Below, one piece after another: positions 911 through 46,839 of a stretch of 64,000 bases of DNA. The stretch lies in NCBI GenBank assembly GCA_026414975.1, contig JAOAHZ010000007.1, forward strand, positions 1 through 64,000, read 5' to 3'. This stretch comes from Bacteroidia bacterium (lineage in GTDB: Bacteria > Bacteroidota > Bacteroidia > SpSt-205). How positions within the stretch are numbered: the stretch's first letter is position 1; each line of letters starts with the position of its first letter. The translations under genes and the position numbers were made by a program. The notes beneath the pieces are model-generated. The model was not told where the DNA came from and did no database searches. It worked only from the letters and a program-made list of their open reading frames with translations.

Positions 911-1945
911 TCAGTCAGCCGGTACCGCAAAGAGCTGATTTTCTGCCTGCAGAGTCGTAGCCACATTTCGTATGCTTCTTGTAGTACCGCCTTGTGGTTC
1001 TTTGTTGCCGAAGTAGTAGTATCGCTTAGTAGAACCACTCTGGTTATGAATAAGCACTTGACCTGTTACGATTCCAAACCGACAGTTAGAGGGTAGTATG
1101 CCGCTAATATAAGGAGAGCCGATGATGTCCGGGGAGGTTCCAGCCCATGTTGAGTTGTCCGAAAATGAGGTTCTAACCCAAATACTCTGTCTAATAGGTA
1201 GCGTATCAATCCCCGGACCGTCGAGTCGCAAAAGCTGAGTAGAAAAAACCATCCATCGGCCAGGAGGAAGGTCTATGTAGGAGTTTAGGTATTGCCAGTC
1301 TGGGAAGTTAGTAGTTATATCCTGTTGATTGGTATGCAAAGCCCCGAGTATTAGCCCTGCATAGCCATTTTCGGCGAAGCGGCGCCATCGCCCCCCTTGC
1401 CAGTAATAATAGCCAGGCCTGACAAGATTCACCCCACTCCCAGCTGTAGCGGTGTTGTACACCAGCATCCCCTCCGTGGCGGAGCCGGCTACAGGACTCC
1501 AAGAGTTGGCAGCGGTTAGGGCCACGGTAGGTAAAATAACCCCCTGCGTACCATTCCCCAGCACGTGCAGCTTAGCTCCTGGATGAGGGGTCATGGTACC
1601 AATGCCCACCTGACCATTCACTACAGACATTCCATGCACCTCCCCCCAACGATTCGCGGCACCCGTACCATTTGTGTAAAAGTCAATTCTACCTGTGAAG
1701 CTCCCATTATCACCTGAGCGGATAAGACCCGGACGCCATTCCGATGGGAAACCTAAGGGATCGCTCACAAATTCTATACCTGCTGCCCCAAAGGCCCCTG
1801 TAGATTGAACGCGAATGTAGGTGGGGTTAGCTGTGCTATACACATGTAGCGGACGCTGGGGTTGATTAGTGCCTATACCCACATTTTGTCCATACAACAT
1901 CAGGCAGATACCAGCAGCCAAATTCAAGAGACGATAGCGAAACAT
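911..1945 (-). CDS. Secreted protein with tail-fibre-like VGIGT repeats
   Basis: Exported protein of unknown function, 344 residues from the chosen ATG at 1945. I chose it because the N-terminus is a signal peptide ending LMLYGQ and a TAnnTTTG box lies 3 nt upstream; the longer frame to 2005 would put a Cys-containing tail before the signal peptide. Two copies of a VGIGT..P...LHV motif occur (NVGIGTNQPQRPLHV at the mature N-terminus and QVGIGTMTPHPGAKLHV further in). This motif is common in large Bacteroidota surface proteins and resembles phage tail-fibre repeats. The C-terminal half has no recognised domain and no clear T9SS sorting domain. It converges with the methyltransferase gene and diverges from pstS. 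Confidence 0.7.
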   Translation of the reverse strand: MFRYRLLNLAAGICLMLYGQNVGIGTNQPQRPLHVYSTANPTYIRVQSTGAFGAAGIEFVSDPLGFPSEWRPGLIRSGDNGSFTGRIDFYTNGTGAANRWGEVHGMSVVNGQVGIGTMTPHPGAKLHVLGNGTQGVILPTVALTAANSWSPVAGSATEGMLVYNTATAGSGVNLVRPGYYYWQGGRWRRFAENGYAGLILGALHTNQQDITTNFPDWQYLNSYIDLPPGRWMVFSTQLLRLDGPGIDTLPIRQSIWVRTSFSDNSTWAGTSPDIIGSPYISGILPSNCRFGIVTGQVLIHNQSGSTKRYYYFGNKEPQGGTTRSIRNVATTLQAENQLFAVPAD

Positions 1946-1948
1946 GTG

Positions 1949-1956
1949 CAAATATA
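1949..1956 (-). promoter_or_regulatory. Bacteroidota -7 promoter box TATATTTG
   Basis: Exact match to the Bacteroidota sigma-factor -7 consensus TAnnTTTG, read on the minus strand, 3 nt before the ATG at 1945. No convincing -33 TTTG was seen. Confidence 0.6.
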
Positions 1957-2046
1957 CTACTGATTTCACCTCGCAAATTGGGCATTTCTGCATATCGGAA
2001 TGCACGAGTGTGTATTAGCTGTATGAACCTCGGTCCCTCGGATAGA

Positions 2047-2069
2047 AACCGCACTCCCAGAGTGCGGTT
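2047..2069. repeat. Perfect 10-bp inverted repeat in the divergent region upstream of pstS
   Basis: Arms AACCGCACTC and GAGTGCGGTT are separated by CCA, giving a 10-bp stem with a 3-nt loop. It lies between two divergent genes, where no terminator is needed, and no long T-run follows on either strand. It could be an operator or a leader hairpin; the sequence alone does not decide. Confidence 0.6.
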
Positions 2070-2221
2070 ATAGCTAAACAAGTCAAAGCACAAAAGACCA
2101 TGGTCGGCGAGAAGCCTATCTCTAGGGTAAGCCAGACCGAGATAGCTACCACTGGTAAGAGATCCACCTTCAGACAGAGCTTTAAACATTGGCTTTACAA
2201 AGGGAATGCTGATTTGCACTA

Positions 2222-3025
2222 ATGCGACATCTGCTGGGGGCCCTAATTTTACTTGGCTGTACCCGCAGAGACCTTATATCTGTCAAAGGTAGCGACACGA
2301 TATTACCTTTGAGCCAAGCTTTCGCCGAAGCTTTCCTAAGAGAGAGGAATGACTTGCTCATCAGTGTAACAGGTGGAGGAAGCGGAGTCGGTATCGCAGC
2401 TCTAATGAATGGAGATGCAGATATCGCTATGTCCTCTCGCCCTCTCAAACTCTCCGAAAGACTCAAGCTCATTGAACAAGGCAAAATTCTTGTAGAAGAT
2501 ACCATCGCTTGGGATGTTTTGGCTATTTGTGTCCATCCCAGCAACCCGGTTCAGAAGCTGACTCGAACGCAGCTCGCTGCTATCTTCACAGGAAGAATCA
2601 AGAACTGGAAAGAGGTAGGGGGGCCCGACCTGCGAATCTTACCTTACTCCCGGGAGTCCAGTTCAGGCACTTTCGAGTTTTTCCGTGAGCACATGTTGAA
2701 AGGGAAAGACTTTTCACCTGAGGTTCGCTTTATTCCGGCTACAGGCATGATGGTCCAATCTATCTCTCAGACGCCTGGGGCTATCGGGTACACTGGGGTG
2801 GCCTATGTAACCTCAGGCGTGAAAGTTTTGGCTGTTGCCCAAGATGGGGATACCCAGTACTACTTTCCTGCGCGTTCTCGTGCAGAACTGGATAAATACC
2901 CTATAGCTCGTCCGCTTTATTATTATTATGACGCAGCACGAGCCGAGCGTGTGAAGCCATTTTTGAAGTTCGTACATTCAGCGCAGGGGCGCCGGATCGT
3001 AGAAAAAGTCGGCTATGTCCCATGA
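2222..3025 (+). CDS. pstS: Phosphate ABC transporter substrate-binding lipoprotein PstS
   Basis: Periplasmic, membrane-anchored phosphate-binding component of the Pst importer. The 267-residue protein starts with a short lipoprotein signal ending LILLGC (Cys13). Phosphate-contacting motifs are visible in order: GSDT (23-26), GGGSGVG (51-57), SSRP (71-74) and RESSSGT (144-150). The family segment with NPV..LT..QL and NWKEVGGPD spans about 104-139. It overlaps pstC by 4 nt (ATGA), so the two are translationally coupled. A degenerate promoter box ending TTTG (2213-2216) lies 5 nt before the ATG. No PhoB-type box was recognised. Confidence 0.95.
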   Translation: MRHLLGALILLGCTRRDLISVKGSDTILPLSQAFAEAFLRERNDLLISVTGGGSGVGIAALMNGDADIAMSSRPLKLSERLKLIEQGKILVEDTIAWDVLAICVHPSNPVQKLTRTQLAAIFTGRIKNWKEVGGPDLRILPYSRESSSGTFEFFREHMLKGKDFSPEVRFIPATGMMVQSISQTPGAIGYTGVAYVTSGVKVLAVAQDGDTQYYFPARSRAELDKYPIARPLYYYYDAARAERVKPFLKFVHSAQGRRIVEKVGYVP

Positions 3026-4182: not shown

Positions 4183-5026
4183 TCGTTGGGGGGAGAGATT
4201 GGCCACTCTACTGATTACCCTGGTAAGTTGGGGAGCTATCTCTTTGCTCGGCGGTGTAGTGGGTTTTATAGCCTACAAGGGGATATCTGTAATAAGCTGG
4301 TCTTTCCTTATTGAACCGATGCGCGAGGGCATGCAAAAAGGTGGGATCGCCCCCGCTATAGTAGGCAGCCTATGGGTTACGCTCGTAGCTATTTCGGTAG
4401 GTGGCTTTATTGGAACCGCGGCTGGTGCCTACCTAAGCGAATTTGCCTCTCATCGTCGCTTTAGGCAGCTTATAGAGTTTCTGGTCACGACGCTGGCAGG
4501 TATCCCTTCTGTGGTGTATGGTCTATTTGGATTAGCTCTCTTTGTGGTAGCCTTAGGCTTTGGAGCCTCTATTTTGGCAGGGGGGCTAACTTTAGCGCTC
4601 TTATCCTTACCCTTACTAATAAGGAATGCTCAGGAAGCTTTCTCGGCTGTGCCTTCTTCTCTCAAAGAAGCCAGTTTGGGTTTAGGGGCTTCGGAAATGC
4701 AGACTTTTCTGCGAATTACTTTACCTGTAGCTTTGCCAAGGGTAGTCACCGGTCTCGTATTAGCCACAGGACGGGTCTTGGGGGAAACCGCCCCGATCCT
4801 CTTCACTGTAGCAGCTTACTATTTGCCTACCTATCCCCAAAGTATTTTTGAGCCTACAATGCTACTGCCCTATCACTTGTATGCGCTCATCACCAGTGGA
4901 ATCAACGTAAAGGAAACTTACCCCATGGCATTCGGGACTGCTCTGACTCTACTTCTGTTGAGCTTGTTTTTTACACTGATTGCTGCTTATTTTCGCTTTC
5001 GCCTCAAACAGAAATACCGTGTATAA
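4166..5026 (+). CDS. pstA: Phosphate ABC transporter permease PstA
   Basis: Second inner-membrane permease of the Pst importer, 286 residues from the ATG at 4166. I preferred this ATG to an in-frame TTG at 4139 because it gives the normal basic N-terminus ([13 protein letters not shown]) before TM1. About six membrane segments are visible, and the conserved loop [20 protein letters not shown] contacts the ATPase. The periplasmic loop after TM1 ([20 protein letters not shown]) is typical of the family. The gene overlaps pstC upstream and pstB downstream, as in a tightly coupled operon. Confidence 0.93.
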
Positions 5027-5771
5027 AGTAGAAGCCCACGCAGTCTCGGTTTGGTACGGCACCTATAAGGCGTTGGACTCGGTATCTTTAGCTCTTGAGC
5101 GGAATCAAGTATTAGCTCTCATTGGCCCCTCTGGATGCGGCAAATCTACTTTCCTTCGTCTGCTCAACCGAATGAACGACTACATAGAAGGCTTTCACAT
5201 GGAAGGCCGCCTGTTGATAGATGGGGAAGATATTTATTCGCCAGAAGTAGACCCTGTTCATTTACGCCGCCGAGTGGGCATGGTCTTTCAAAAACCGACC
5301 CCATTTCCTTTTTCTATTTACGAAAATGTGGCTTATGGCCTGCGCCTCCAGAATCGCCTTAAGGAAGCTCAGATACGGGAGCGCGTAGAACAGGCGCTAC
5401 GCCAATCCGCTCTCTGGGATGAAGTCAAAGACAACCTCAAAAAATCCGCTCTGGCTCTCTCGGGAGGCCAGCAGCAGCGTCTGTGCATCGCTCGTGCTTT
5501 AGCTGTCCGTCCCTCTCTCCTCCTCATGGATGAACCTACCTCTGCATTGGACCCCATATCCACAGCTAAGATTGAAGAGCTTATTCACGAACTGCGACAC
5601 ACCTACACCATCGTTATCGTTACCCATAATATGCAGCAAGCCGCCCGTATTAGTGATATGACCGCTTTCTTTTACATGGGGCGCATAGTGGAGTACGATA
5701 GAACTAAGGACTTTTTTACCAACCCGAAGCATCCCGAAACATTGCGCTATATTACAGGTAGATTTGGCTAA
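5019..5771 (+). CDS. pstB: Phosphate ABC transporter ATP-binding protein PstB
   Basis: Cytoplasmic ATPase that drives phosphate import through PstC/PstA. Walker A is GPSGCGKST, the ABC signature is LSGGQQQRL, Walker B is [12 protein letters not shown], and the switch His lies in VTHNMQQA. I place the start at GTG 5019, 8 nt before the end of pstA, giving about 250 residues and a first conserved stretch [17 protein letters not shown]. The longer frame from 4980 would add 13 residues that lie wholly inside pstA. PstB proteins are normally 250-260 residues. phoU follows after 2 nt. Confidence 0.93.
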
Positions 5772-5773
5772 CT

Positions 5774-6916: not shown

Positions 6917-7011
6917 AGGTTACCTCTAAAGATGGAAAAAACGCACCCGAGTTGGCATATGTTCGGCTTTTTTCGTAGGTGGGGGAAGGTCCTTTGGGTG
7001 GGATGTTGTTT

Positions 7012-7056
7012 GGGTTGGGGGGCGCCAGCGCCTGCGGCGCTGGCGCCCCCCAACCC
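7012..7056. repeat. Perfect 21-bp inverted repeat, GC-rich hairpin
   Basis: Left arm 7012-7032 and right arm 7036-7056 are exact reverse complements, separated by TGC. The inner part is GGCGCCAGCGCC-TGC-GGCGCTGGCGCC and the outer part is a G-run facing a C-run. No T-run follows on either strand, and both neighbouring genes point away, so it is not an ordinary terminator. I found no second copy in the window. It could be a REP/BIME-like dispersed element, a site for a DNA-binding protein or a leader structure. Confidence 0.9.
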
Positions 7057-7195
7057 TTGATCATCCGAATCTACCCCCTCTTTAGCCCCTTCCACCTGGC
7101 AGCTCCCCCTTTCATGCTTCCTCTCTCTGAAGCAGATAGTCCAGATTCAAGCTATTTCAAACCTGCAAAATCATGAACAAAAGACCAAAATGTCG

Positions 7196-7203
7196 TACCT
7201 TTG
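7196..7203 (+). promoter_or_regulatory. Bacteroidota -7 promoter box TACCTTTG
   Basis: TAnnTTTG match 7 nt before the TTG start codon of gldE at 7211. An in-frame stop at 7202-7204 rules out any start upstream of the box. Confidence 0.6.
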
Positions 7204-7210
7204 AACAGTA

Positions 7211-11101: not shown

Positions 11102-11109
11102 CAAATATA
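11102..11109 (-). promoter_or_regulatory. Bacteroidota -7 promoter box TATATTTG
   Basis: TAnnTTTG match on the minus strand, 4 nt before the ATG at 11097. Confidence 0.6.
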
Positions 11110-14390: not shown

Positions 14391-14398
14391 CAAAGGTA
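14391..14398 (-). promoter_or_regulatory. Bacteroidota -7 promoter box TACCTTTG
   Basis: TAnnTTTG match on the minus strand, 3 nt before the ATG at 14387. Confidence 0.6.
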
Positions 14399-14428
14399 CA
14401 GCAAAGCCTGCGGAGATGCCCTTACAGG

Positions 14429-14501
14429 TGGAGAGTAGCGGACTCGAACCGCTGACCTTCGGCTTGCAAAGCCGACGCTCTACCATCTGAGCTAACTCCC
14501 C
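14429..14501 (-). tRNA. tRNA-Ala (TGC)
   Basis: The 73-nt cloverleaf folds fully: acceptor GGGGAGT pairs with ACTCTCC, the D-arm is GCTC/GAGC, the anticodon stem TCGGC/GCCGA encloses TTTGCAA (anticodon TGC), and the T-arm is AGCGG-TTCGAGT-CCGCT. CCA is not encoded. It lies 5 nt downstream of tRNA-Ile on the same strand. Confidence 0.97.
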
Positions 14502-14506
14502 CGCCG

Positions 14507-14580
14507 TGGGCCTGCGTGGATTCGAACCACGGACCTCTACATTATCAGTGTAGCGCTCTAACCACCTGAGCTACAGGCCC
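14507..14580 (-). tRNA. tRNA-Ile (GAT)
   Basis: The 74-nt cloverleaf has acceptor GGGCCTG/CAGGCCC and anticodon stem CTACA/TGTAG enclosing CTGATAA (anticodon GAT). The T-arm is CGTGG-TTCGAAT-CCACG. CCA is not encoded. The Ile-Ala pair, usually found in the 16S-23S spacer, stands here without any rRNA gene beside it. Confidence 0.97.
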
Positions 14581-14588: not shown

Positions 14589-14596
14589 CAAAGTTA
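14589..14596 (-). promoter_or_regulatory. -7 promoter box TAACTTTG for the tRNA-Ile/tRNA-Ala pair
   Basis: TAnnTTTG match on the minus strand, 8 nt before the mature 5' end of tRNA-Ile. Its position directly before a stable-RNA gene supports use of this box as a real promoter element in this organism. Confidence 0.6.
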
Positions 14597-14714: not shown

Positions 14715-20086
<5,372 letters not shown>

Positions 20087-20200: not shown

Positions 20201-20208
20201 TATCTTTG
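20201..20208 (+). promoter_or_regulatory. Bacteroidota -7 promoter box TATCTTTG
   Basis: TAnnTTTG match, 4 nt before the ATG at 20213. Confidence 0.6.
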
Positions 20209-25178: not shown

Positions 25179-25207
25179 TTGCGTGTGGGAGAAAAGTTAT
25201 ACTTTTG
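25179..25207 (+). promoter_or_regulatory. Promoter with -33 TTG and -7 TACTTTTG for the tRNA-Gly/tRNA-Leu transcript
   Basis: The -7 box TACTTTTG (25200-25207) lies 8 nt before the mature 5' end of tRNA-Gly. A TTG at 25179-25181 is 18 nt upstream, close to the usual -33/-7 spacing in Bacteroidota. This is the most complete promoter seen in the window. Confidence 0.6.
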
Positions 25208-26763: not shown

Positions 26764-26771
26764 TAACTTTG
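26764..26771 (+). promoter_or_regulatory. Bacteroidota -7 promoter box TAACTTTG
   Basis: TAnnTTTG match, 6 nt before the ATG at 26778 and 6 nt after the stop of the permease gene. Confidence 0.6.
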
Positions 26772-28804: not shown

Positions 28805-28812
28805 TACTTTTG
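28805..28812 (+). promoter_or_regulatory. Bacteroidota -7 promoter box TACTTTTG
   Basis: TAnnTTTG match, 5 nt before the ATG of pruA at 28818. Confidence 0.6.
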
Positions 28813-31001: not shown

Positions 31002-31009
31002 TACCTTTG
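31002..31009 (+). promoter_or_regulatory. Bacteroidota -7 promoter box TACCTTTG
   Basis: TAnnTTTG match, 5 nt before the ATG of the 53-residue basic protein at 31015. Confidence 0.6.
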
Positions 31010-31014: not shown

Positions 31015-31176
31015 ATGGCCCGAAAACCAGATAAGCGTGTTTATGTGAGGCGTAACCGAGTACGCCGCAAGCTCCAGAAGCGCCGGGCGTGGGCTCCCAT
31101 CACTAAGCACAAGGCAAATGCCCTCCAAAAGTCTAATCTAAGCCTTCTGAGAGAGCTTGAGCGCCTTTTAGGATGA
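31015..31176 (+). CDS. Highly basic 53-residue protein of unknown function
   Basis: Unrecognised short ORF. It has 18 Lys/Arg against 3 acidic residues. Residues 1-33 are strongly basic (MARKPDKRVYVRRNRVRRK at the start), and the last 15 form a likely amphipathic helix (SNLSLLRELERLLG). Support for a real gene: a -7 box 5 nt upstream, and an ATGA overlap with the next gene. The composition suggests RNA or ribosome binding. It does not match bS20, bS21, bTHX or bL32/bL34 as far as I can see. Confidence 0.65.
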   Translation: MARKPDKRVYVRRNRVRRKLQKRRAWAPITKHKANALQKSNLSLLRELERLLG

Positions 31177-34322: not shown

Positions 34323-34330
34323 TACTTTTG
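34323..34330 (+). promoter_or_regulatory. Bacteroidota -7 promoter box TACTTTTG
   Basis: TAnnTTTG match, starting directly after the sugar transferase stop codon and 4 nt before the rpmE2 ATG. Confidence 0.6.
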
Positions 34331-37797: not shown

Positions 37798-38417
37798 GAC
37801 CCGCCCCGAGCAAGCAGGTCTTTAGCCTCTTTCATCGTGATACGCACGCCGTCCTTGAAGGGTACAATCCATGCATCTTTTATGCCTAAGCGCTTGAGGT
37901 CTTTCTGAAACGCTTCAGCCAAACCCAAATCGCGGAACCGTCCCACGGTGTACCGATTGATATCGCCAAGCGCCTCGGTTTCGAAGAAAGGATTATCCTG
38001 AGCATACTTACGCATGTCAAACAAACGAAAAGCACCTATCTGAACCTTGAAGACTAAACCCGGCATAACATCAAGGCGAGCTTGTTTCTTCTCGGCTTCA
38101 TAAGCAGCCTTTAGGCGCATGACCTCGCTATTGAGGGAGTCAACGGAGTATTGACGGGCTCTGAGTTGGTCCTCCAGCTTAGCGAGCTGCTCAGCCAGCT
38201 CCCGGTTTCGTCGCTGAAGCTCGGCGATTTGATTATCCCGATCCTGAATCTGCTTTTGGAATCCCTCCTCTCGGGCTTTGAGAGCTAAGGGGTTTTTTAC
38301 ATACTGTTTGGCCTTCTTTTTCCACTCTTTTCGGAGCTGCTTCTGAGGGTCTCCCTTCTTTTTTTGCGCCCAACCAAGTCCGAGGCTCAGAACGAGAGCT
38401 ACCCAAATGTATCGCAT
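37794..38417 (-). CDS. Exported coiled-coil protein with SPOR-like C-terminal domain
   Basis: 207-residue protein. The signal peptide ends LGLGWAQ, followed by a Lys-rich linker. A long coiled coil spans about 45-115 (heptads in QIQDRDNQIAELQRRNREL). The C-terminal domain (about 120-200) starts VFKVQIGAFRLFD and includes RYTVGRFRDLGLAEAFQKDL, the pattern of SPOR-type peptidoglycan-binding domains. Similar proteins occur across Bacteroidota as ezrin/radixin/moesin-like hypotheticals. First gene of its operon, with a -7 box 4 nt upstream of the ATG. Confidence 0.85.
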   Translation of the reverse strand: MRYIWVALVLSLGLGWAQKKKGDPQKQLRKEWKKKAKQYVKNPLALKAREEGFQKQIQDRDNQIAELQRRNRELAEQLAKLEDQLRARQYSVDSLNSEVMRLKAAYEAEKKQARLDVMPGLVFKVQIGAFRLFDMRKYAQDNPFFETEALGDINRYTVGRFRDLGLAEAFQKDLKRLGIKDAWIVPFKDGVRITMKEAKDLLARGGS

Positions 38418-38421
38418 ACCA

Positions 38422-38429
38422 CAAAAGTA
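38422..38429 (-). promoter_or_regulatory. -7 promoter box TACTTTTG, minus-strand half of a divergent pair
   Basis: TAnnTTTG match on the minus strand, 4 nt before the ATG at 38417. The plus-strand box starts 2 bp away. Confidence 0.6.
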
Positions 38430-38431
38430 AG

Positions 38432-38439
38432 TAGATTTG
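38432..38439 (+). promoter_or_regulatory. -7 promoter box TAGATTTG, plus-strand half of a divergent pair
   Basis: TAnnTTTG match, 4 nt before the ATG at 38444. The two boxes lie back to back in a 26-bp intergenic gap, so any -33 element of each must lie inside the coding region of the other gene. Confidence 0.6.
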
Positions 38440-38443
38440 ACAC

Positions 38444-40564
38444 ATGTGGCTACTCTTCCTGTTCATCTGGACTCAGCTTTTCCTGCGTCCTACAGCTCCT
38501 ATAGTTAGCTTTGACCAAGATACCCTGTACAACGCTTGGGCAGGCGGGTGGAATAGCCCGCAGTTTTCCACGATTGACATAGATGGGGATGGGCAGGCTG
38601 AACTGTTTGTCTTTGACCGATCGGATGACCGCTGCATGATTTTCAAAAAGGATGGAAGTCGGTGGATCTACTCGCCTGAAGCCGACTCTCTCTTCCCCCA
38701 AAGGCTTCTTTCGGGCTGGGTCTTACTGCGGGATTATGACGGAGATGGGGATAAGGACCTCTTCACAAATATCAACTCTAATGTACGCGTGTTTCAAAAC
38801 ATAGCGCCTCTGGGAGCCCCCCCTGTTTGGAGGTTAGCGTATGATACTCTCCGCAGCTTATATGCGCCGAACTACCCATCCTACTTGTATGCTGCTCGCA
38901 CGGACATACCGGCTATCGCAGATATTGATGGTGATGGAGACATAGACCTCCTCGTATACGAAGTTCTCGGCACCCTAATAGAATGGCATAAAAATCAAGC
39001 CGTGGAACAGTTGGGTCGTCCCGACACTCTCATCTTAGAACTACAGTCAAGCTGCTGGGGACATGTGTTTGAGCGGTATGACTATACAACAAATACATTT
39101 TCGTTTATAGAGTATCATTGCGGTCCAGGTCAAAGGGAGGGGGAACTTTTGACTGTGCCGCCTCAAGGTAGAATCCACCATGCGGGCGGAACTATACTCG
39201 CCATAGACCTCAATGGAGATGGGCTGCGAGATATTGTCATAGGCGACGATGGCCCCCCTTACCTGATAGCAGGTCTAAACACTGGCACAACACAGATCGC
39301 TCACATTGAGGCTTCTACAGCTATCTCTCCTTATCCGGTCCAGAATCCTCTGTATATGCCTTCCTTTCCAGCAGCATATTATGAAGATATAACGGGAGAT
39401 GGTAAACCAGACTTGATTTGTGCTAACAACAGCCCCATTTCTGGAGAAGATAGATATACAGTATGGCTATACGAGAACATCGGTCGTATTGACTCCCCAG
39501 CATGGAATCCTCCCATCATCGGCTGGCTCTATCATACCATGTTGGATGTCGGGCGTAATGCTCACCCCACCCTAGCTGACCTCAACCGAGACGGTTACCC
39601 AGACTTGATCCTCAGTAGCGAAAGTTTCTACACTAACACAGGAACTAAGGCTCGTGCTATCTTGCTATGGGGGACGGCTCAAGGCTTTGCCGTTGGAGAT
39701 ACAAACTGGCTCAATCTACCAAGCTATAACCTTCTGAATCCGACTTTCACTGTAGGAGATATAGATGGAAATGGACGGATGGACCTTATTGCAGGAACCA
39801 GTACGGGTAAGCTCTGGCGATGGGAGGAACAAACCGCCGGTGGAGTTGATTTTAGCTTGGTTTCCCAAGACTTTGCTGGGATTACAGCTCTTGCCTTTGC
39901 TACACCGCTGCTATACGACTACGATGGAGATGGAGATTTAGATTTGATCGTAGGTGCGCGAAATGGAAGACTCTCGCTTTATCGGCAGGAGTCGGGAGGG
40001 AGCTTCACGCTTGTTACAAACTTTCTGGGTCAAATAGAGCTGCGAGATACTCTAAGTACTCTTTTAGGCTTTACGCGCCCAGCTCTAATAGACTTAGACC
40101 GCAACGGTACGCCTGAGCTCTTAGTAGGCAATCTAACGGGGTTCTTGCGAGTCTATTGGGCTTTCTGGGGTGCACCCACTGCTGCTTGGCTACCCATCGC
40201 TGACCTTCCCTATCGCTGGGGTAAACGCGCTAGCCCAACAGTATGGCAGCAGAACGATTCCACCCTTATTCTGGTTGGCAATACGAGAGGAGGGGTACAA
40301 GCCTTTTCGCTCACTTTGGGTCGCTCCAGTTTAGCTTTATCCTCATCCTCCTCCCGTCCTTATACTCTCCTTCGTCAGAGTGACTCCTACCTCATCCAAG
40401 CTGATAGGCCCGCAAAAGTAAGCATTTATGATCCGCTTGGACGCGAGATAGCGCGGCTTCCGGAGGCAACTCTCATCTACATCCCCCCTCTAGCGAGCGG
40501 GCTGTATGTGTTGAGTGTTTCAGTTGGGCCAGAATCTTTCTGGGAAAAAATTTGGATTTACTGA
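38444..40564 (+). CDS. Secreted FG-GAP/VCBS repeat protein with T9SS type A-like C-terminus
   Basis: 706-residue exported protein, predicted to be a calcium-binding beta-propeller at the cell surface. The signal peptide is MWLLFLFIWTQLFLRP. At least nine FG-GAP type DxDGDGxxDL loops occur, among them IDIDGDGQAEL, RDYDGDGDKDL, ADIDGDGDIDL, EDITGDGKPDL, GDIDGNGRMDL and YDYDGDGDLDL. The last 70 residues look like a T9SS sorting domain (PAKVSIYDPLGREIARL, LASGLYVLSVSVG). It belongs to the same plus-strand run as the type B cargo gene, which begins 1 nt after its stop. No enzyme domain is seen. Confidence 0.9.
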   Translation: MWLLFLFIWTQLFLRPTAPIVSFDQDTLYNAWAGGWNSPQFSTIDIDGDGQAELFVFDRSDDRCMIFKKDGSRWIYSPEADSLFPQRLLSGWVLLRDYDGDGDKDLFTNINSNVRVFQNIAPLGAPPVWRLAYDTLRSLYAPNYPSYLYAARTDIPAIADIDGDGDIDLLVYEVLGTLIEWHKNQAVEQLGRPDTLILELQSSCWGHVFERYDYTTNTFSFIEYHCGPGQREGELLTVPPQGRIHHAGGTILAIDLNGDGLRDIVIGDDGPPYLIAGLNTGTTQIAHIEASTAISPYPVQNPLYMPSFPAAYYEDITGDGKPDLICANNSPISGEDRYTVWLYENIGRIDSPAWNPPIIGWLYHTMLDVGRNAHPTLADLNRDGYPDLILSSESFYTNTGTKARAILLWGTAQGFAVGDTNWLNLPSYNLLNPTFTVGDIDGNGRMDLIAGTSTGKLWRWEEQTAGGVDFSLVSQDFAGITALAFATPLLYDYDGDGDLDLIVGARNGRLSLYRQESGGSFTLVTNFLGQIELRDTLSTLLGFTRPALIDLDRNGTPELLVGNLTGFLRVYWAFWGAPTAAWLPIADLPYRWGKRASPTVWQQNDSTLILVGNTRGGVQAFSLTLGRSSLALSSSSSRPYTLLRQSDSYLIQADRPAKVSIYDPLGREIARLPEATLIYIPPLASGLYVLSVSVGPESFWEKIWIY

Positions 40565-40565
40565 A

Positions 40566-43439
40566 ATGCGCTACTTGAAAGCTGCCACCTTTCTTACGCT
40601 TAGTTTAGCCCGTCATATCGCTGGGGCGGACTTTTACTACGAGTGCATAGACTCTGCGCAAAACCTATATCGATTTGAGCTGTGGTTATATCGAGATTGT
40701 ACAGACCCTGAGGGCGCTGATTACGACAATCCGATTGTCCTCTACATTTTCCAAGGAGATGGTATCCTTTATGCCATCCAAAACATAACTTTGACCCGTA
40801 GCCGACCTTGGGACCCTGAAGGTGTAGACGCTTGCTTTCTCCAGCGCCCCGGTACCTGCTTAGAAGAGGGCGTGTATCGGTTTAATCTAAGGCTTCCGCC
40901 TCGGGCAGATGGGTATTATGTAGCGTGGGCGCGCTGTTGCCGAAATGCCGCTATCACCAACTTAGCTTCCCCGCTCAATATGGGGATCACCTACTTAGCG
41001 AGGATACCGCCAGCTCGTCGAGCAGTTTGCAATACCAGTCCCCGGTTCGTTCAGCGTCCGCCGTTCTTCCTCTGCATGGGGCATGATTTCTATTTTAATC
41101 ACAGCGCTACCGATGCCGATGGCGACTCGCTGGTGTATCAGATCGTAGCTGCTTACCACAGCGTCAATACCCAAGGACAAGGAGCAGTAAATCCTATACA
41201 GGGCGGTTCTCCTACGGTGGGACCTCACAACCCCATGGGACCCCCACCTTATCAGACCGTTACTTATGCGCCAGGCTACTCTGCCAATCAGCCTTTTGGC
41301 TCAGGTGGCATTTGCCAAATAAACTCTAACACAGGCTTACTTCACCTGCGAGCGCCTAATCCAGGCCTATACGTGGTCGCTATAGCGGTCTTAGAGTACC
41401 GAAACGGGGAGTTTCTTGGCGAAACGCGACGAGACATGCAGTTCTATGTGGCTCCTTGTCGCCCGCCTACAGCTCCGCCTGTGGTAACGCATGACCTATC
41501 AGGGCTTCCTCACCGAGGAGATACCCTTGTGCTACAAGCCAACCAAAATGCATGCTTCACCGCTGTCATACAAGACACTCAGCCCCCCACTCCACCTGCT
41601 GTTCTTACCTACTCTGTCTTCCCGTTATCCTCTACCCTACAAGCCAGTGGAACCAATCCCCTTCTTCTGCAGATTTGCATCCGCCCCAGTTGCCAAGACA
41701 CGGGACGCGTACTACCCCTCTATATCTTAGGACGAAAAACCGAACTCTGCGGCACCACCGAAGATTACGACACGGTGTGGATAGAGGTTTTAGCCCCTCC
41801 CAATCGGACTTTGACAGGAGCTTTAGTTCCCCCTTCCCTCCCGCAGCAAAGCGGTGTGTTTCTCATTCAGTTAGACAGCGTAAGTTGCGCCAGATTTTGG
41901 GCTTTAGCCACTCCTCCTCAACCCCCTATCCAAATAAGTTATGCTACTTCTCCACCTTCAGCGCAAGTTGGGCTTGTTACCCGGTGGCGGGGAGACACTT
42001 TAGAAGGCGAGTTGTGCTACCGAGGCGGGTGCGAGGGACTATCCCAGCCTGTGAGCATTATTTTGAGGGCGGTAGCTCCTTCTATTTGTCATCCGAGCCC
42101 TGAGCGGGCTGACACCCTACGATTTCAGGTGCAGCTCCCCGAAAATCCTCCACCGAGACCCGTTTTTATAGCTCCAGACACCTTGGTTGTGTTAGCCGAT
42201 AGCGGTGTATGTGTCCGTCTGCGAGTAAGCGATAGCCTTCCTCTCAGCCGACATACGCTATATGTCCAAAGCTACCCCCCTCTCGTACGGAATCTTAGCG
42301 CTACGCCGTCAGGAGGTACAGGCTCTTGGGAGGCTGAAGTGTGTTTTACCCCTTCTTGCGAAGCCTTAGAACAGGTCATTCTCCTCGTAGCCGAAGTGCG
42401 CGATTCGCTAAGCTGCGCCGAACTGTATCGTCGGTACGATACATTGAGAGTTTGGGTGCGTTCTCGCCCCACTTATCCTCTGGCTCTTTATGCGCCAGCA
42501 TGGTCCGCAGATACACCTTTTCAGCCACTCTTCAATACCTCCTATTGCTTTTCTGTGGTAGCGCGCGATACAGCAGGCAACGGTGGTACTTATCAGATAC
42601 AAGCTATAGCCCCTCAAATACCCCTACAACTGGGCTCTTTTACTCAAGTGGGCGACTCCATACGCGGAGAGGTATGCTTTCGTTTGGACTGTAACTTTAG
42701 TCATGATAGCTTGTATCCGATTATTCTGCGGGCGACAAACCTGCCACCCTGCGCCTTAGTTCCACCTGAAACGATAGATACAATCTGGCTGCGTCCTCGC
42801 TACCTTTCTATCAATCGCCCTCCTGTTCTTATCCGAGACCGACCCAGCCCTTGGGAGGTTACCCCCTCTGGGGACAGTCTATGCTATACGCTTCTCGTGC
42901 GTGACTCAGACTCGGTAGCGCTTTTCTCGTACGAGGGGATAGGAGCAGCGTTTTCACCCGAGTTTTTTTGGGGTTCTCATTTCTCTCTATCTGTCCTCAG
43001 TAACGACCCTCTCCGCCTGCGGCTATGCGCTGAAATAAATTGCTATGCCCAAGGCCAAACCTTTCCTGTGATAGTATGCGTTCAGGATACCGCCAGTTGT
43101 GATCCTAATCAGCGGTGGCAGGTGTGCGACACTTTACAGGTTCGGACACGTCTATGCCATGGGGTTATGCCGAATGTCTTTACGCCAAATGGGGATGGCC
43201 TAAATGATCGGCTCGCTCCTTATGAGCTTGCGGGCATAGATCGGTGGAGACTGCTTGTGTGGGATCGATGGGGTCAACAGGTTTTTGCGGGCAACTGGGG
43301 TGAATCTTGGGATGGAAGCGTTTTCGGTAGCCCAGCCCCTGAGGGTGTGTACTTTTACATCTTGGAGCTGAACCTTTTGAGCGGAAGAGGTCCGAGCTTA
43401 CGCTTTGAGCGAGCAGGCAGCGTGAGTCTTCTACGCTAA
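40566..43439 (+). CDS. Secreted multi-domain protein with T9SS type B (gliding-motility) C-terminal domain
   Basis: 957-residue exported protein. I chose the ATG at 40566, 1 nt after the stop of the previous gene, because it starts a signal peptide (MRYLKAATFLTLSLARHIAG). The N-terminal domain has paired Cys and segments like YYVAWARCCRNAAITNL, common in large Bacteroidota adhesins. The middle has repeated segments of about 120 residues, each with paired Cys (ELCYRGGC, EVCFTPSC, EVCFRLDC). The last 85 residues are the gliding-motility/CHU_C type B domain: VMPNVFTPNGDGLNDRLAP, LLVWDRWGQQVFAG and APEGVYFYILEL. A surface adhesin role is plausible but inferred. Confidence 0.88.
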   Translation: MRYLKAATFLTLSLARHIAGADFYYECIDSAQNLYRFELWLYRDCTDPEGADYDNPIVLYIFQGDGILYAIQNITLTRSRPWDPEGVDACFLQRPGTCLEEGVYRFNLRLPPRADGYYVAWARCCRNAAITNLASPLNMGITYLARIPPARRAVCNTSPRFVQRPPFFLCMGHDFYFNHSATDADGDSLVYQIVAAYHSVNTQGQGAVNPIQGGSPTVGPHNPMGPPPYQTVTYAPGYSANQPFGSGGICQINSNTGLLHLRAPNPGLYVVAIAVLEYRNGEFLGETRRDMQFYVAPCRPPTAPPVVTHDLSGLPHRGDTLVLQANQNACFTAVIQDTQPPTPPAVLTYSVFPLSSTLQASGTNPLLLQICIRPSCQDTGRVLPLYILGRKTELCGTTEDYDTVWIEVLAPPNRTLTGALVPPSLPQQSGVFLIQLDSVSCARFWALATPPQPPIQISYATSPPSAQVGLVTRWRGDTLEGELCYRGGCEGLSQPVSIILRAVAPSICHPSPERADTLRFQVQLPENPPPRPVFIAPDTLVVLADSGVCVRLRVSDSLPLSRHTLYVQSYPPLVRNLSATPSGGTGSWEAEVCFTPSCEALEQVILLVAEVRDSLSCAELYRRYDTLRVWVRSRPTYPLALYAPAWSADTPFQPLFNTSYCFSVVARDTAGNGGTYQIQAIAPQIPLQLGSFTQVGDSIRGEVCFRLDCNFSHDSLYPIILRATNLPPCALVPPETIDTIWLRPRYLSINRPPVLIRDRPSPWEVTPSGDSLCYTLLVRDSDSVALFSYEGIGAAFSPEFFWGSHFSLSVLSNDPLRLRLCAEINCYAQGQTFPVIVCVQDTASCDPNQRWQVCDTLQVRTRLCHGVMPNVFTPNGDGLNDRLAPYELAGIDRWRLLVWDRWGQQVFAGNWGESWDGSVFGSPAPEGVYFYILELNLLSGRGPSLRFERAGSVSLLR

Positions 43440-43444
43440 GTTTG
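43437..43444 (+). promoter_or_regulatory. -7 promoter box TAAGTTTG, sharing bases with an upstream stop codon
   Basis: TAnnTTTG match, 5 nt before the lysS ATG. The TAA that ends the type B cargo gene (43437-43439) forms the first three bases of the box. Confidence 0.55.
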
Positions 43445-43449
43445 CACCC

Positions 43450-44931
43450 ATGGACCCCGTTCGCCAGGCCAAGATAGCCGAGCTACGCCGACTGGGCATA
43501 GACCCTTTTCCGACCGAACCTTTTCTGGTCAATACTACAGCTGCGCAGATCTTTCGATATTATCCCCAGCAGAAACTTGACTTTAAGTCGGTTCGCCTGG
43601 CAGGGCGCCTATGGCGCAAACGGCTAATGGGTAAAGCCTCCTTCGCCGTACTGCGCGACGAGAGTGGAGAGATTCAACTCTACTTTCAACGAGATGACTT
43701 TGCTGAACGGCCAGAACTGTACGATATAGTTTTCAAGAAGCTCTTAGACCTGGGCGATGTCTTAGGAGTAGAAGGCTTTGTCTTTACCACGAAGACGGGC
43801 GAAATCACCGTTCATGTTCAGCGATTCCGTCTACTGGCTAAGTGTTTGCGCCCACTGCCCATAGAAAAAGAGACAGAGGAGAAAACTTATGCAGCTTTCA
43901 CGGATCCAGAGCTGCGCTACCGAATGCGGTATGTGGATCTGATTGTGCATTTAGGTGTAAGAGATATTTTTCGACGGCGCACGACTATCGTGCAGAGCAT
44001 CCGAGATTTTTTCAATCAGCGGGGCTATTTAGAAGTAGAAACGCCAATACTACAACCCGTTTATGGGGGTGCATTTGCTCGTCCTTTTACCACTCATCAC
44101 GAGGCGCTGGATATGCAGCTTTTCCTTCGCATCTCCAACGAGCTCTACTTGAAGCGTCTTATCGTAGGCGGCTTCACAGGGGTGTATGAGTTTTCTAAAG
44201 ATTTTCGCAACGAAGGCATAGACCGCTATCACAACCCAGAATTCACCCAGGTAGAGCTGTATGTGGCCTATCAGGATTACCTCTGGATGATGGAACTGGT
44301 AGAACAGCTCTTGGAAAGCGTGGTTCGGCAAACCCTTGGCAAGACTACCGTACAATACGGTGAGCATGAAATAGATTTCGCCGCTCCTTATCGTCGCGTG
44401 CGCTACTACGATGCTATAGAAAGCAGCTTGGGCGTAAACGTACGCCATCTATCGGAAAGGGAGCTCATAGAGCTGCTTCACCAGAAAAACCTACCCCTGC
44501 CCACCCCCCCTTACGAACGAGCAGACCTAATAGCCCGCCTTTTTGACAAGCTGGTAGAGCCTTCTCTGATCCAGCCGACCTTTGTGATGGATTACCCGAT
44601 TGAACTCAGTCCCTTAGCTAAGGCCCATCGGACAGACCCAGAGCTAACAGAACGATTTGAGCTCATCGTCGCTGGTAAGGAACTTGCAAACGCCTATTCC
44701 GAGCTGAACGATCCCATAGACCAGCGTCAGCGTTTGGAGAAACAAATGGCTTTACGAGCAGCCGGCGGACTTGAAGCGATGCCCATGGATGAAGATTTCC
44801 TACGAGCCTTAGAATACGGCATGCCCCCAACCGCTGGATTAGGATTGGGTATAGACCGCCTCGCTATGCTACTTTGCAATGTACCCAGCATTCAAGAGGT
44901 TTTGCTTTTCCCACTGCTGAGACCCGAATAG
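43450..44931 (+). CDS. lysS: Lysine--tRNA ligase, class II
   Basis: Cytoplasmic aminoacyl-tRNA synthetase that charges tRNA-Lys, 493 residues. The N-terminal OB-fold (about 45-150) binds the anticodon (VRLAGRLWRKRLMGKASFAVL). Class II motif 2 is FRNEGIDRYHNPEFTQVELY and motif 3 is AGLGLGIDRLAML. The length is shorter than many Bacteroidota LysRS, which carry a C-terminal extension, but fits the bacterial core enzyme. It is followed after 40 nt by the convergent ribBA. Confidence 0.96.
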   Translation: MDPVRQAKIAELRRLGIDPFPTEPFLVNTTAAQIFRYYPQQKLDFKSVRLAGRLWRKRLMGKASFAVLRDESGEIQLYFQRDDFAERPELYDIVFKKLLDLGDVLGVEGFVFTTKTGEITVHVQRFRLLAKCLRPLPIEKETEEKTYAAFTDPELRYRMRYVDLIVHLGVRDIFRRRTTIVQSIRDFFNQRGYLEVETPILQPVYGGAFARPFTTHHEALDMQLFLRISNELYLKRLIVGGFTGVYEFSKDFRNEGIDRYHNPEFTQVELYVAYQDYLWMMELVEQLLESVVRQTLGKTTVQYGEHEIDFAAPYRRVRYYDAIESSLGVNVRHLSERELIELLHQKNLPLPTPPYERADLIARLFDKLVEPSLIQPTFVMDYPIELSPLAKAHRTDPELTERFELIVAGKELANAYSELNDPIDQRQRLEKQMALRAAGGLEAMPMDEDFLRALEYGMPPTAGLGLGIDRLAMLLCNVPSIQEVLLFPLLRPE

Positions 44932-44971
44932 CAATTTCACTCAAAGAGCTCTATCTGCCCTGAGCACCCCC

Positions 44972-46258
44972 TCAAGAGGGCCCACAGGCGCGAGCTCCTT
45001 CACTTGAGGGAACCGAAGCCGTATCTGACAGAATATCTTCGGGTAAGATATGACCTAAACGAGTCTTTTTGGCTTGGAGATAACGCCTGTTGTAAGGGGT
45101 AGGTGGGCTGAGGAGAGGGATGATCTCCACGATTTCCAAATCATAGCCTGCTAACCCTGCTCGCTTCTTGGGATTGTTGGTCATAAGACGCATTTTGCGA
45201 ACCCCTAAGTCCCGCAGAATCTGAGCCCCGGTCCCGTAGTCTCGCTCATCGGGTTTATAGCCTAAAGCCAAGTTAGCCTCCACCGTATCTAGACCTTCCT
45301 CTTGGAGCTTATAGGCGTGCATTTTAGGGAGCAAGCCGATACCGCGTCCCTCTTGATTGATATAGACTAAGACGCCTTTGCCCTCTTCTTCTATGCGCTG
45401 AAGGGCTAAGGCGAGCTGGTCGCCACAATCACAGCGCAAAGAACCCAAGATATCCCCCGTAAAGCAAGACGAATGCACCCGGACCAAAACGGGCTCTTCG
45501 GGGTCCCAGCTTCCTTTGACTAAGGCGATATGGGGCTGCCCCGTGAGCGTATGACGATAAGCGTAAAGTTTGAAGTGTCCATACCGGGTAGGCATATCCA
45601 CGACGACCTCTCGGGAGACGGTGCTTTCGGTGCGAAGGCGATAGGTAATCAGGTTCTGGATGGTAATAAGGGGTATGCCCCATTTGTCGGCAAGCTGACG
45701 CAGTTGGGGTAAGCGTGCCATAGTTCCGTCCTCATTCATGATTTCTACGATCACAGCGACGGGATAGAGGCCCGCCAAACGCATCAAATCCACTGCCGCC
45801 TCGGTATGTCCAGCTCGGCGAAGGACCCCTTCAGCTTGAGCTACCAGAGGGAAGATATGGCCCGGTCGGGCGAAGTCTTCAGGCCGAGCTTGAGGATCCG
45901 CTAAAGCCCGAATGGTGCGAGCGCGGTCCTGAGCTGAAATGCCCGTAACCTTCCCCTCGCCTACGTAATCCACCGATACTGTGAAAGCCGTATGGTGAGG
46001 AGCCGTATTTTCTATGACCATAGGGGACAAACGGAGTTGACGAGCTCTCTCCTCTGTCAGAGGCACGCATATGAGGCCGCGAGCCTCTTTCGCCATGAAG
46101 TTAACCGCCTCTGGCGTTACAAACTGAGCTGCCATGACTAAGTCCCCCTCATTCTCTCTATCCTCATCATCCACAACTATAACGAACCGTCCTTGCTGAA
46201 GGGCGGATATAGCCGACTCTACGCTATCTATGCGAATCTCTTCCTCCGAGTAGGTCAT
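44972..46258 (-). CDS. ribBA: Bifunctional DHBP synthase / GTP cyclohydrolase II (RibBA)
   Basis: Cytoplasmic riboflavin-pathway enzyme, 428 residues. The N-terminal half makes 3,4-dihydroxy-2-butanone 4-phosphate ([33 protein letters not shown]). The C-terminal half is GTP cyclohydrolase II with the zinc site in [18 protein letters not shown] and the catalytic region [15 protein letters not shown]. It overlaps adk by 4 nt and likely shares its transcript. Other riboflavin genes are not in the window. Confidence 0.96.
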
Positions 46259-46827
46259 GAAGCTCTTAACAAAGTTTGAACGATGCCCTCTATATGACCG
46301 CTGACCTCCTCCACAGAACCCGTACCAGGAATAGAATACAAGCGACCTTGTTGCCGATAGAAGCTGAGGAGGGGCGCTGTTTTCTGCTCGTATTCACGGA
46401 GGCGGGTTTGGATCGTGGTCGGTGTATCATCAGTGCGACCTTCAGCCTGAGCTCGTCCTAAAATACGCCGAATAAGCTCTGCCTCAGGAACATCCAGAAA
46501 CAAGACCCCGACAAGCCGTCCACCTCTCTCCGCCAAGAGCCGTTCCAAAGCTTCAGCCTGCCCTATCGTGCGTGGGAAACCATCTATGAGATAATCGCTT
46601 CCATTCCTAAGATGACTCTCAACCAGCCGAATGATCAAATCATCGGGCACCAACTTCCCCTCTTCAACTAAGTTCTTGATGCTTTGACCCAAGGGGGTAC
46701 CTCGCTGAATCTCCTCCCGTAAAAGGTCGCCAGTAGCCAAATAGGTCCAGCCGTATCGCTCTACAAGTCGCCGAGCTTGAGTGCCTTTGCCAGCGCCGGG
46801 CGGACCTATGAGCAAAAAAACCTGCAT
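46255..46827 (-). CDS. adk: Adenylate kinase
   Basis: Cytoplasmic enzyme that interconverts AMP, ADP and ATP. The start at ATG 46827 gives 190 residues and places the P-loop [10 protein letters not shown] right at the N-terminus; the longer frame to 46884 overlaps the TPR gene and is not credible. AMP site: TGDLLREEI and [13 protein letters not shown]. The LID is the short form without a zinc finger ([11 protein letters not shown]). A -7 box sits in the 13-nt gap before it. ribBA follows with a 4-nt overlap. Confidence 0.96.
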
Positions 46828-46831
46828 AAAG

Positions 46832-46839
46832 CAAAGGTA
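46832..46839 (-). promoter_or_regulatory. Bacteroidota -7 promoter box TACCTTTG
   Basis: TAnnTTTG match on the minus strand, 4 nt before the adk ATG. It fits inside the 13-bp gap between the TPR gene and adk. Confidence 0.6.

Follow-up and report, generated by a model that had tools for sequence, protein, structure and literature searches.

Where does transcription begin when a promoter box lies only a few nucleotides before a start codon? The question is raised by the 64-kb stretch of Bacteroidia DNA analysed here (the window), in which exact TAnnTTTG boxes had been reported directly before 14 genes and read, in the original prediction, as a sign of leaderless translation as the default in the lineage. 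The sigma-ABfr promoter of Bacteroidota (Bacteroides, Flavobacterium) consists of TAnnTTTG at −7 and TTTG at −33, and Bacteroidota are known for managing without Shine-Dalgarno (SD) signals.

Coordinates, strands and gaps of all 14 boxes were reproduced, and the four tRNA transcripts of the window said to carry the same box were found to do so at gaps of 4, 8, 8 and 11 nt. A total of 53 TAnnTTTG boxes were present in the window, compared with 29.7±5.9 in shuffled sequence (100 shuffles, all with fewer than 53). For 13 of the 49 called genes a box was located at a gap of 3–7 nt, while 0–1 genes were found that way at fifteen upstream-shifted positions. These 13 include 5774+ (gap 7), which was absent from the original list and starts 2 nt past the end of its upstream neighbour gene. 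A gene caller based on codon statistics only, and thus blind to upstream sequence, picked 12 of the 14 box-adjacent starts; the remaining two, 34335+ and 31015+, are small genes that it missed. The boxes next to genes and tRNAs, together with one leadered counter-example (51949..51956), are as follows.

1949..1956, minus strand: box TATATTTG, 3 nt before ATG 1945- (344 aa, no family)
5759..5766, plus strand: box TAGATTTG, 7 nt before ATG 5774+
7196..7203, plus strand: box TACCTTTG, 7 nt before TTG 7211+ (GldE/CNNM-like, below curated cut-off)
11102..11109, minus strand: box TATATTTG, 4 nt before ATG 11097- (no family)
14391..14398, minus strand: box TACCTTTG, 3 nt before ATG 14387- (weak BamB/PQQ-repeat match)
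14589..14596, minus strand: box TAACTTTG, 8 nt before mature tRNA-Ile (tRNA-Ile/tRNA-Ala pair)
16679..16686, minus strand: box TAGCTTTG, 5 nt before gyrB ATG 16673-
20201..20208, plus strand: box TATCTTTG, 4 nt before ATG 20213+ (PorU2-type T9SS sortase)
25200..25207, plus strand: box TACTTTTG, 8 nt before mature tRNA-Gly (tRNA-Gly/tRNA-Leu pair)
26764..26771, plus strand: box TAACTTTG, 6 nt before ATG 26778+ (OmpA/PorE-like, below curated cut-offs)
28805..28812, plus strand: box TACTTTTG, 5 nt before ATG 28818+ (aldehyde dehydrogenase family)
31002..31009, plus strand: box TACCTTTG, 5 nt before ATG 31015+ (53-aa basic protein, no Pfam match)
34323..34330, plus strand: box TACTTTTG, 4 nt before ATG 34335+ (ribosomal protein L31)
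38422..38429, minus strand: box TACTTTTG, 4 nt before ATG 38417-
38432..38439, plus strand: box TAGATTTG, 4 nt before ATG 38444+ (FG-GAP repeat protein)
43437..43444, plus strand: box TAAGTTTG, 5 nt before ATG 43450+ (class II tRNA synthetase, D/K/N type)
46832..46839, minus strand: box TACCTTTG, 4 nt before ATG 46827- (adenylate kinase)
51928..51935, minus strand: box TATTTTTG, 4 nt before mature tRNA-Ser
51949..51956, plus strand: box TATATTTG, 22 nt before ATG 51979+
54578..54585, minus strand: box TATATTTG, 11 nt before mature tRNA-Thr

The weakest of these are 7211+, with its TTG start, and 1945- and 14387-, whose gap of 3 is one base below the usual distance from box to transcription start site. 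The boxes of 38417- and 38444+ stand back to back in an intergenic space of only 26 bp.

The spacing is a property of the source genome, of which 978 kb out of 2.206 Mb were analysed. When TAHHTTTG followed after k nucleotides by the ATG of a frame ≥100 aa long was counted, k=3 to 9 yielded 8, 63, 22, 15, 13, 9 and 6 occurrences, and any k from 10 to 60 yielded 0–6. The anticipated distance peak is therefore sharp, with its maximum at gap 4, enrichment at 3–8 nt and low counts elsewhere. Among 683 genes called from codon usage only, 130 had the box 3–7 nt before the start, with 1–15 in shifted windows. Chance as the cause of this spacing was ruled out by offset, shuffle and reversed-pattern controls.

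The box was unevenly distributed among gene classes. An exact box at 2–8 nt was present at 72 of 198 divergent genes. Among co-directional genes it was found at 39 of the 157 whose upstream space is 60 nt or longer, and at 13 of the 276 (operon-internal) with <20 nt upstream. A motif model fitted from a TA..TTTG seed placed a box at 3–8 nt in 57% (n=178), 36% and 9% of these classes, respectively; for divergent genes the box was at 9 nt or more in 26% (20–35%), and ~16% had no clear box. A promoter is expected at 352 genes; 183 of them lack an exact box in the 120 nt upstream, and in 38 the only one lies at 9–120 nt. The motif fitted on divergent genes (T 0.87, A 0.91, C 0.43, C 0.59, T 0.97, T 0.97, T 0.86 and G 0.91) has the consensus TACCTTTG, with G rare at the two middle positions. 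In a search for a −33 element at fixed spacing, no position beyond 2 nt upstream of the box exceeded 0.12 bits (167 promoters), and no clear preferred spacing was found between back-to-back boxes.

Pairing of box and start was conserved within the family, represented by 12 genomes including the source and G399, a complete second genome of the genus (400 kb analysed). For gyrB, the box was found in 11 of 11 usable genomes (one near-match) at gap 5, except for gap 4 before GTG in one, and this gap was held although the N-terminus has five different lengths. The box precedes rpsA at gap 7 in 11 of 11 genomes, rpsU at gap 4–7 in 11 of 11 and the GTG of infC at gap 5–8 in 9 of 9. The 53-aa frame of 31015+ has matches beginning at residue 1 in 11 of the 12 genomes, source included, and in all 11 a box (one near-match) lies 4–6 nt before the ATG. 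Together these five genes contribute 53 boxes, 49 exact and four ending in TTCG. Comparison of the two genomes of the genus gave a more mobile picture: 13 of 17 source-genome genes with a close exact box have a G399 orthologue with one, and only 13 of 30 G399 genes have such a source-genome orthologue (near-matches there being uncounted). Judged from these pairs, the close-box arrangement is turning over between the two genomes. Conservation of the exact gap between source and G399 orthologues was not supported (5 of 13 agree; 0.38 versus 0.23 by permutation), although the gaps of gyrB, rpsA and rpsU are closely kept.

Could the motif act in translation, as a ribosome-binding element of TTTG type whose likeness to the promoter box is accidental? 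Its position, 4–12 nt before the codon, fits the region of a ribosome-binding site, and the lineage has no SD signal. Yet an exact box also lies 4–11 nt before the mature 5′ end of 13 of 13 transcript-first tRNAs, which are untranslated, and it is uncommon at the operon-internal genes, for which translation is required but a promoter is not (the fitted model still gives 17% for those of G399). The identical 8-base consensus is, moreover, the mapped promoter element of relatives (PMC9723704, PMC6847099). The ribosome-binding reading was rejected on the tRNAs and the operon-internal scarcity, and its probability is very low; as the original prediction held from the tRNAs, the box is, by its distribution, a promoter and not a ribosome signal. 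The other reading is that the promoters are leadered in the ordinary way and the start codons are mis-called, translation truly beginning 15–40 nt downstream of the box-side codon. Start calling is indeed imperfect, as 22 of the 352 source genes have an in-frame upstream start 3–8 nt after a box and 3 have a downstream one. However, calls made blind to upstream sequence still line up with the box, and the same method gives a different main peak (around k=14–26) in other Bacteroidota. Substitution is already of coding type in codons 2–6 past the box-proximal start (mismatch of 0.44, 0.23 and 0.59 at codon positions 1, 2 and 3; 14 pairs); the 53-aa protein and rpsU, whose N-terminus is nearly invariant, are conserved from their first residues, and the Pfam match of L31 (34335+) begins at residue 1. 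On this N-terminal conservation mis-calling was rejected, and it is only slightly less improbable than a ribosome-binding element.

That all Bacteroidota might be alike, with spacing statistics differing for instance with GC content, deserves more weight, though it too is unlikely. In 78 named loci from other Bacteroidota, a minor peak at k=4–8 accompanies the main one; the N3–7 excess of box-ATG pairs over control was high in two lineages outside the family, G440 (214 per Mb) and G041 (100 per Mb), and was more than twice the N20–24 excess in 12 of 48 non-family genomes (G419 having none at N20–24). The sequences from G440 (50 kb) and G406 (48 kb) are too short for a gap histogram. A close box precedes gyrB in 8 of 75 cases from other genera, 7 of which group with Saprospiraceae. 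Against a uniform phylum, every one of the 12 family genomes had an N3–7 excess of 135–184 per Mb, where the 48 others had a median of 30, and its ratio to that at N20–24 was 4.7–10 throughout the 12. The spacing peak recurs in G399, where the model put a box at 3–8 nt of the start in 66% of 84 divergent genes, compared with 8% of 238 in the named loci; as a share of fitted boxes (bootstrap), the range is 60–75% in the source genome, 61–82% in G399 and 5–17% in the named loci. Published maps of three species likewise give ~4–13% short or absent leaders: leaders exceed 10 nt in 87% in F. johnsoniae (PMC6847099), leaderless mRNAs are 5.5% in F. psychrophilum (PMC9723704) and ~3.7% of 5′-UTRs are <10 nt in B. 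thetaiotaomicron (PMC7366714). From these sequence comparisons, first genes of the family thus appear to rely mainly on a mode that is minor in the phylum. Relative to the sigma-ABfr promoter, the family has the same −7 box, tRNAs included, with two G-poor middle positions as in F. johnsoniae, but lacks the −33 motif and places the box 3–8 nt from the start in most divergent genes; for F. johnsoniae the revised box is TAHHTTTG and there, too, the −33 motif is far less conspicuous (PMC6847099). In Actinobacteria and Deinococcus-Thermus many genes likewise have a promoter box, though a different one, at a fixed short distance from the start.

The start codon of a leaderless mRNA is expected to be ATG or GTG and hardly ever TTG. 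Box-proximal starts were 89 ATG, 16 GTG and 1 TTG in the source genome and 48 ATG and 13 GTG in G399; the operon-internal mix (ATG/GTG/TTG of 230/31/4 and 105/14/2, respectively) is not discriminating. SD-like motifs were not enriched, being found at 24 of 253 operon-internal starts versus 36 and 37 in control windows. The A-rich upstream signal present in the named Bacteroidota loci was absent here (A at −3 of 0.27 at source operon-internal starts versus 0.56, the base composition of the two sets being different). Searches for 16S families found nothing; the only readable 16S end, that of G399, contains the anti-SD core CCTCC. A search for lost translation factors gave no lead, S1, bS21 and IF3 being matched in most family genomes: S1 in 11 of 12 (every match under the curated cut-off, as was also the case in 12 of 14 control genomes), bS21 in 11 of 12 (no match in the 99% complete G403) and IF3 in 9 of 12 (the three exceptions being 66–83% complete). 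Residue 54 of the source-genome bS21, as counted along its own translation, is tyrosine. The family thus resembles F. johnsoniae, which is SD-poor with a sequestered anti-SD, in having no SD enrichment, CCTCC in G399 and bS21 in most genomes. Weak SD use in the phylum is not enough to explain the leaderless mode, because published maps of other SD-poor Bacteroidota show mostly leadered mRNAs. In many Flavobacteriales rpsU carries an extended SD serving autoregulation (PMC9976891), whereas in the family the box lies 4–7 nt from its ATG, too close for a transcript made from that promoter to include an SD.

We consider it very probable, from sequence, that most transcript-first genes of the family have their start codon placed at the transcription start, on leaderless or near-leaderless mRNA. 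The box, mostly TACCTTTG with no detectable −33 element, would be the −7 element of a housekeeping promoter of the sigma-ABfr type. As it ends 3–8 nt (mostly 4) before the codon, RNA polymerase would begin on the A/GUG or 1–4 nt before it, and the leader would be absent or a few nucleotides long (at most 8 nt for gaps of 3–8 with a start after the box). At the three tRNAs with gap 4, transcription begins at the fifth base after the box at the latest, which holds for tRNA-Ser if it is served by the promoter at 51928..51935. In Flavobacterium the box spans −12 to −5 (PMC9723704, PMC6847099), and with this spacing the first RNA base at gap 4 falls on the start codon; we infer on such grounds the exact start site and initiation on the 5′-terminal codon. 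For genes with gap 3 the start site would have to lie one base nearer to the box than it usually does. The ribosome must then accept a 5′-terminal start codon without SD or A-rich upstream help. Genes downstream in operons are mostly boxless and lie tightly against the preceding gene or overlap it; coupling to that gene is probably how they are started. Leaderless translation as the lineage default would thus hold for first genes (57–66% of divergent genes; 60–82% of fitted boxes), not for operon-internal ones, and box-bearing genes may have further, leadered promoters upstream. The joint reading, in which the promoter sets the translation start, no cis translation signal is detectable, first genes are started at whatever A/GUG sits at the transcription start so that N-termini can follow the promoter (gyrB), two complete divergent promoters can share ~26–35 bp and even rpsU has been converted, stands at even chances.

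A survey of leaderless genes (Zheng 2011; PMC3160421), as described targeting Pribnow-like boxes only, predicted averages of 19.2% for Actinobacteria and 39.4% for Deinococcus-Thermus genes, with 1 of 37 genomes, at 2.4%, in its Bacteroidetes/Chlorobi row. This suggests that surveys based on Pribnow boxes would miss the family, which also contrasts with the few leaderless mRNAs reported in the maps of three Bacteroidota species. A box 3–8 nt upstream is a usable start-site signal for gene finders and already supports the conserved 53-aa gene. With first genes that appear to be mainly leaderless, yet with S1, IF3 and bS21 genes in most genomes, the family lends itself to comparisons of how start codons are located by a ribosome whose anti-SD is hidden.

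The source genome of the window (2.206 Mb in 58 contigs, 96.7% complete) harbours 507 matches to TAnnTTTG-N2-8-ATG, versus 79 for the reversed pattern. In the window, all 14 boxes (TAnnTTTG, the -7 promoter element of Bacteroidota) that the original prediction had placed 3-7 nt before start codons were found at those gaps, a gap being the number of nt between the end of the box and the start codon. The distance to the start codon, for which a peak had been proposed, was determined over 978,567 bases of this genome, in stretches; genes were called by codon statistics only, with starts picked blind to upstream sequence. A sharp peak was found at 4 nt: among 198 divergent genes (back-to-back neighbours needing their own promoter), the stricter form TAHHTTTG lies at gaps of 3, 4, 5, 6, 7, 8 and 9 nt in 3, 33, 10, 7, 11, 4 and 2 genes, respectively, and in 0-3 per gap from there to 40 nt. 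A box at gap 3-7 precedes 130 of 683 genes (those with <200 nt of upstream sequence being left out), versus 1-15 when the window was moved upstream by 10-150 nt. In a variant that is free of start calls (the box, k bases and an ATG opening a frame of at least 100 aa), 63 cases were found at k=4 and at most six at every k from 10 to 60.

The box is found mainly before genes expected to start a transcript. Exact boxes lie 2-8 nt upstream of 72 of the 198 divergent genes. Among co-directional genes, they do so in 39 of 157 where the upstream space is 60 nt or more and in 13 of 276 where it is <20 nt. Divergent genes whose upstream space reached 25 nt, 178 of 196 in the source genome and 84 of 88 in G399 (a complete genome of the same genus), were used to fit a model combining motif and position. 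Boxes 3-8 nt from the start were assigned to 57% (bootstrap 50-65%) and 66% (57-76%) of these genes, respectively, and boxes at least 9 nt away to 26 and 25%, with ~16% in the source genome receiving none; for shuffled sequences the share at 3-8 nt was 0%. For operon-internal genes (co-directional and closely following another gene) it was 9 and 17%, so that leaderless mRNAs as the default of the lineage, as originally proposed, appear to hold for the transcript-first genes of the family but not for operon-internal ones. Of 352 genes of the source genome expected to need a promoter, 106 harbour an exact box 3-8 nt from the called start and 25 have an alternative in-frame start at that distance, while in 38 the box lies at other distances only and 183 lack one throughout the 120 nt upstream.

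Among the 19 tRNAs in these stretches, six lie no more than 41 nt behind another tRNA and lack an exact box; the other 13, which come first in their transcripts, all carry one 4-11 nt before the mature 5′ end (4 nt in three), which bears out the use of tRNAs as support for a promoter. A role as ribosome site was also considered, yet the tRNA boxes and the scarcity of boxes before operon-internal genes rule against it. If the box 4 nt from a tRNA is its promoter, the latest possible transcription start is the fifth base downstream of the box. As reported for Flavobacterium psychrophilum (PMC9723704) and F. johnsoniae (PMC6847099), the box occupies -12 to -5; with this placement, a gap of 4 would make the A of the ATG the first base transcribed, and gaps of 5-8 would give leaders of 1-4 nt. 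Even without it, a transcription start anywhere after the box would leave a leader of at most 8 nt.

Comparison across the family (12 genomes including the source) indicates that the start codons beside the boxes are real. For gyrB, one genome (G401) was excluded because its frame is broken by stops; the gene (L151) is fragmented, with two in-frame TGA codons in one of the fragments, in a genome of ~10 contigs, and either sequencing error or decay may be the cause. In 10 of the 11 usable genomes, 5 nt separate the box from an ATG (with the variant TAGCTTCG in G402); G405 has a GTG start at gap 4. The gyrB start lies 27, 30, 33, 48 or 81 nt ahead of the codon aligned to residue 10 of the source protein (by hand arithmetic, assuming an ungapped alignment), thus giving five N-terminal lengths with the box-start spacing unchanged. 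In rpsU, matched in 11 of the 12 genomes (none in G403) with the first 20 residues nearly invariant, an exact box lies 4-7 nt upstream in 10 and the variant TATTTTCG at gap 5 in G397. The exact box of rpsA is at gap 7 in 11 of 11 genomes, and infC starts with GTG at gaps of 5-8 in nine, the G400 box ending in TTCG. For a very basic 53-aa protein without Pfam match (window 31015-31176, forward strand), matches beginning at residue 1 were found in 11 of the 12 genomes, with gaps of 4-6 and the variant TACCTTCG in G397; the boxes in G395, G397, G405 and G399 were identified by eye. Together these five genes, a non-random choice by function or mention in the original prediction, have 53 boxes, 49 exact and four ending in TTCG.

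An unselected comparison of 64 orthologue pairs between the source genome and G399, the source member being expected to need a promoter, is weaker support. A close exact box was found in both members of 13 pairs, in the source only in 4, in G399 only in 17 and in neither in 30; a one-mismatch box was present in the G399 member of one of the 4 and of seven of the 30. The gap was equal in five of the 13 shared pairs, which is not clearly above permutation. Thus the arrangement appears strict in some genes, while in others it turns over or escapes exact matching. Codons 2-6 after box-proximal starts showed a coding-type substitution pattern (14 pairs).

Among 167 promoters of the two genomes, TA and TTTG are separated mostly by C or T followed by C, with mild A/T enrichment 5-7 nt ahead of the box; the -33 motif, its partner elsewhere, was sought in them and not found. 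Close-box starts comprise 89 ATG, 16 GTG and 1 TTG in the source genome and 48 ATG and 13 GTG in G399, with 28 of the 29 GTG starts at gaps 4 and 5. Divergent pairs <60 bp apart number 34 of 98 and 17 of 44, respectively, versus 2 of 119 in 78 named loci of other Bacteroidota, a contrast that is to some extent inflated, since gene calling with the pooled codon model was sparser in the latter (845 genes in 1.43 Mb, versus 694 in 0.98 Mb of the source genome). For example, the genes starting at 38417 (reverse strand) and 38444 (forward strand) have 26 bp between their start codons, with two complete back-to-back boxes 2 bp apart (window 38395-38470), so that an upstream element of either promoter would fall inside the coding region of the other gene. 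Similar close pairs recur elsewhere in the genome.

Before operon-internal genes of the source genome, neither a Shine-Dalgarno (SD) excess (24 of 253, versus 36 and 37 in control windows) nor an A-rich upstream signal was found. Co-directional genes have a median gap of 10 nt, with a 4-nt overlap in 77 of 481. The sole readable 16S end, that of G399, contains the anti-SD core. tRNA-Ile and tRNA-Ala, which frequently sit in the rRNA spacer, stand alone in the window (14427-14580), adjoining gyrB; in G399 (L152), the visible 16S-23S spacer is short and gave no reported match to a tRNA.

The closest named records by gyrB are 'Bacteroidia bacterium isolate SKW103' (88%) and J049 (67%), and the gyrB tree sets the family together with J049, whose branch is long, apart from other Bacteroidota as a deep clade (support 100). 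In a set of 60 relatives, box-N3-7-ATG exceeded the reversed pattern by 135-184 per Mb in each of the 12 family genomes and by a median of 30 in the 48 others, while the N20-24 excess was alike in the two groups (median 21 each). G406, the sole other family of the order sampled, had 52. However, G440, which belongs to a different family and has a GC content of 34% in the portion examined, was top of the 60 with 214 (900 matches versus 278), G041, also outside the family, had 100, and in 12 of the 48 the N3-7 excess was more than twice the N20-24 excess, all of which counts against a clean family boundary. Among 395 Bacteroidota genomes, the source genome was apparently top in both excess per Mb and match-to-control ratio (rows judged by eye).

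In the named loci, the main peak lies at k of ~14-26 and a smaller one at 4-8, and the fitted model placed a box at 3-8 nt in 8% (5-13%) of 238 divergent genes; in 140 kb of a further genome, G012, it did so in 11-12% of 34. A close box precedes gyrB in 8 of 75 loci, three further ones being too near a contig end. Those at 4-8 nt in loci that fall near Saprospiraceae in the tree (L077, L094, L103, L105, L118, L120 and L127) suggest that leaderless mRNAs are more frequent in a second group as well. Record titles clash with gyrB placement in L120, L112, L106 and L090: a contig titled 'Thermoanaerobaculia' falls among Saprospiraceae, a record titled 'Chitinophaga pinensis' and a 'Sediminibacterium' MAG fall outside other Chitinophagaceae, and a MAG titled 'Spirosoma fluviale' is placed with Aquirufa.

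In the published accounts, 87% of predicted leaders exceed 10 nt in F. johnsoniae (PMC6847099), 5.5% of mRNAs are leaderless in F. psychrophilum (PMC9723704) and ~3.7% of 5′ UTRs are <10 nt in B. thetaiotaomicron (PMC7366714). Zheng 2011 (PMC3160421), in which only Pribnow-like boxes were sought, lists leaderless genes in one of 37 Bacteroidetes/Chlorobi genomes, at 2.4%, and StartLink describes the FCB group with AT-rich non-canonical RBSs. No description of leaderless dominance in any Bacteroidota lineage was found among the papers listed in searches of an open-access library. In many Flavobacteriales, rpsU is described with an extended SD serving autoregulation (PMC9976891), whereas the family rpsU (L190-L200) has the box 4-7 nt before the ATG; a transcript from this box would have no room for an SD, so that autoregulation must differ or be absent. 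Residue 54 of the source bS21, counted along the translation without alignment to the published protein, is tyrosine, and tyrosine 54 is named there as uniquely conserved in Bacteroidia.

The near-leaderless reading thus stands for the transcript-first genes of the family, with transcription starts as predicted from sequence. The promoter box and this kind of mRNA are both known; what would be new is the common use of such mRNAs in a phylum whose mapped species use them rarely.
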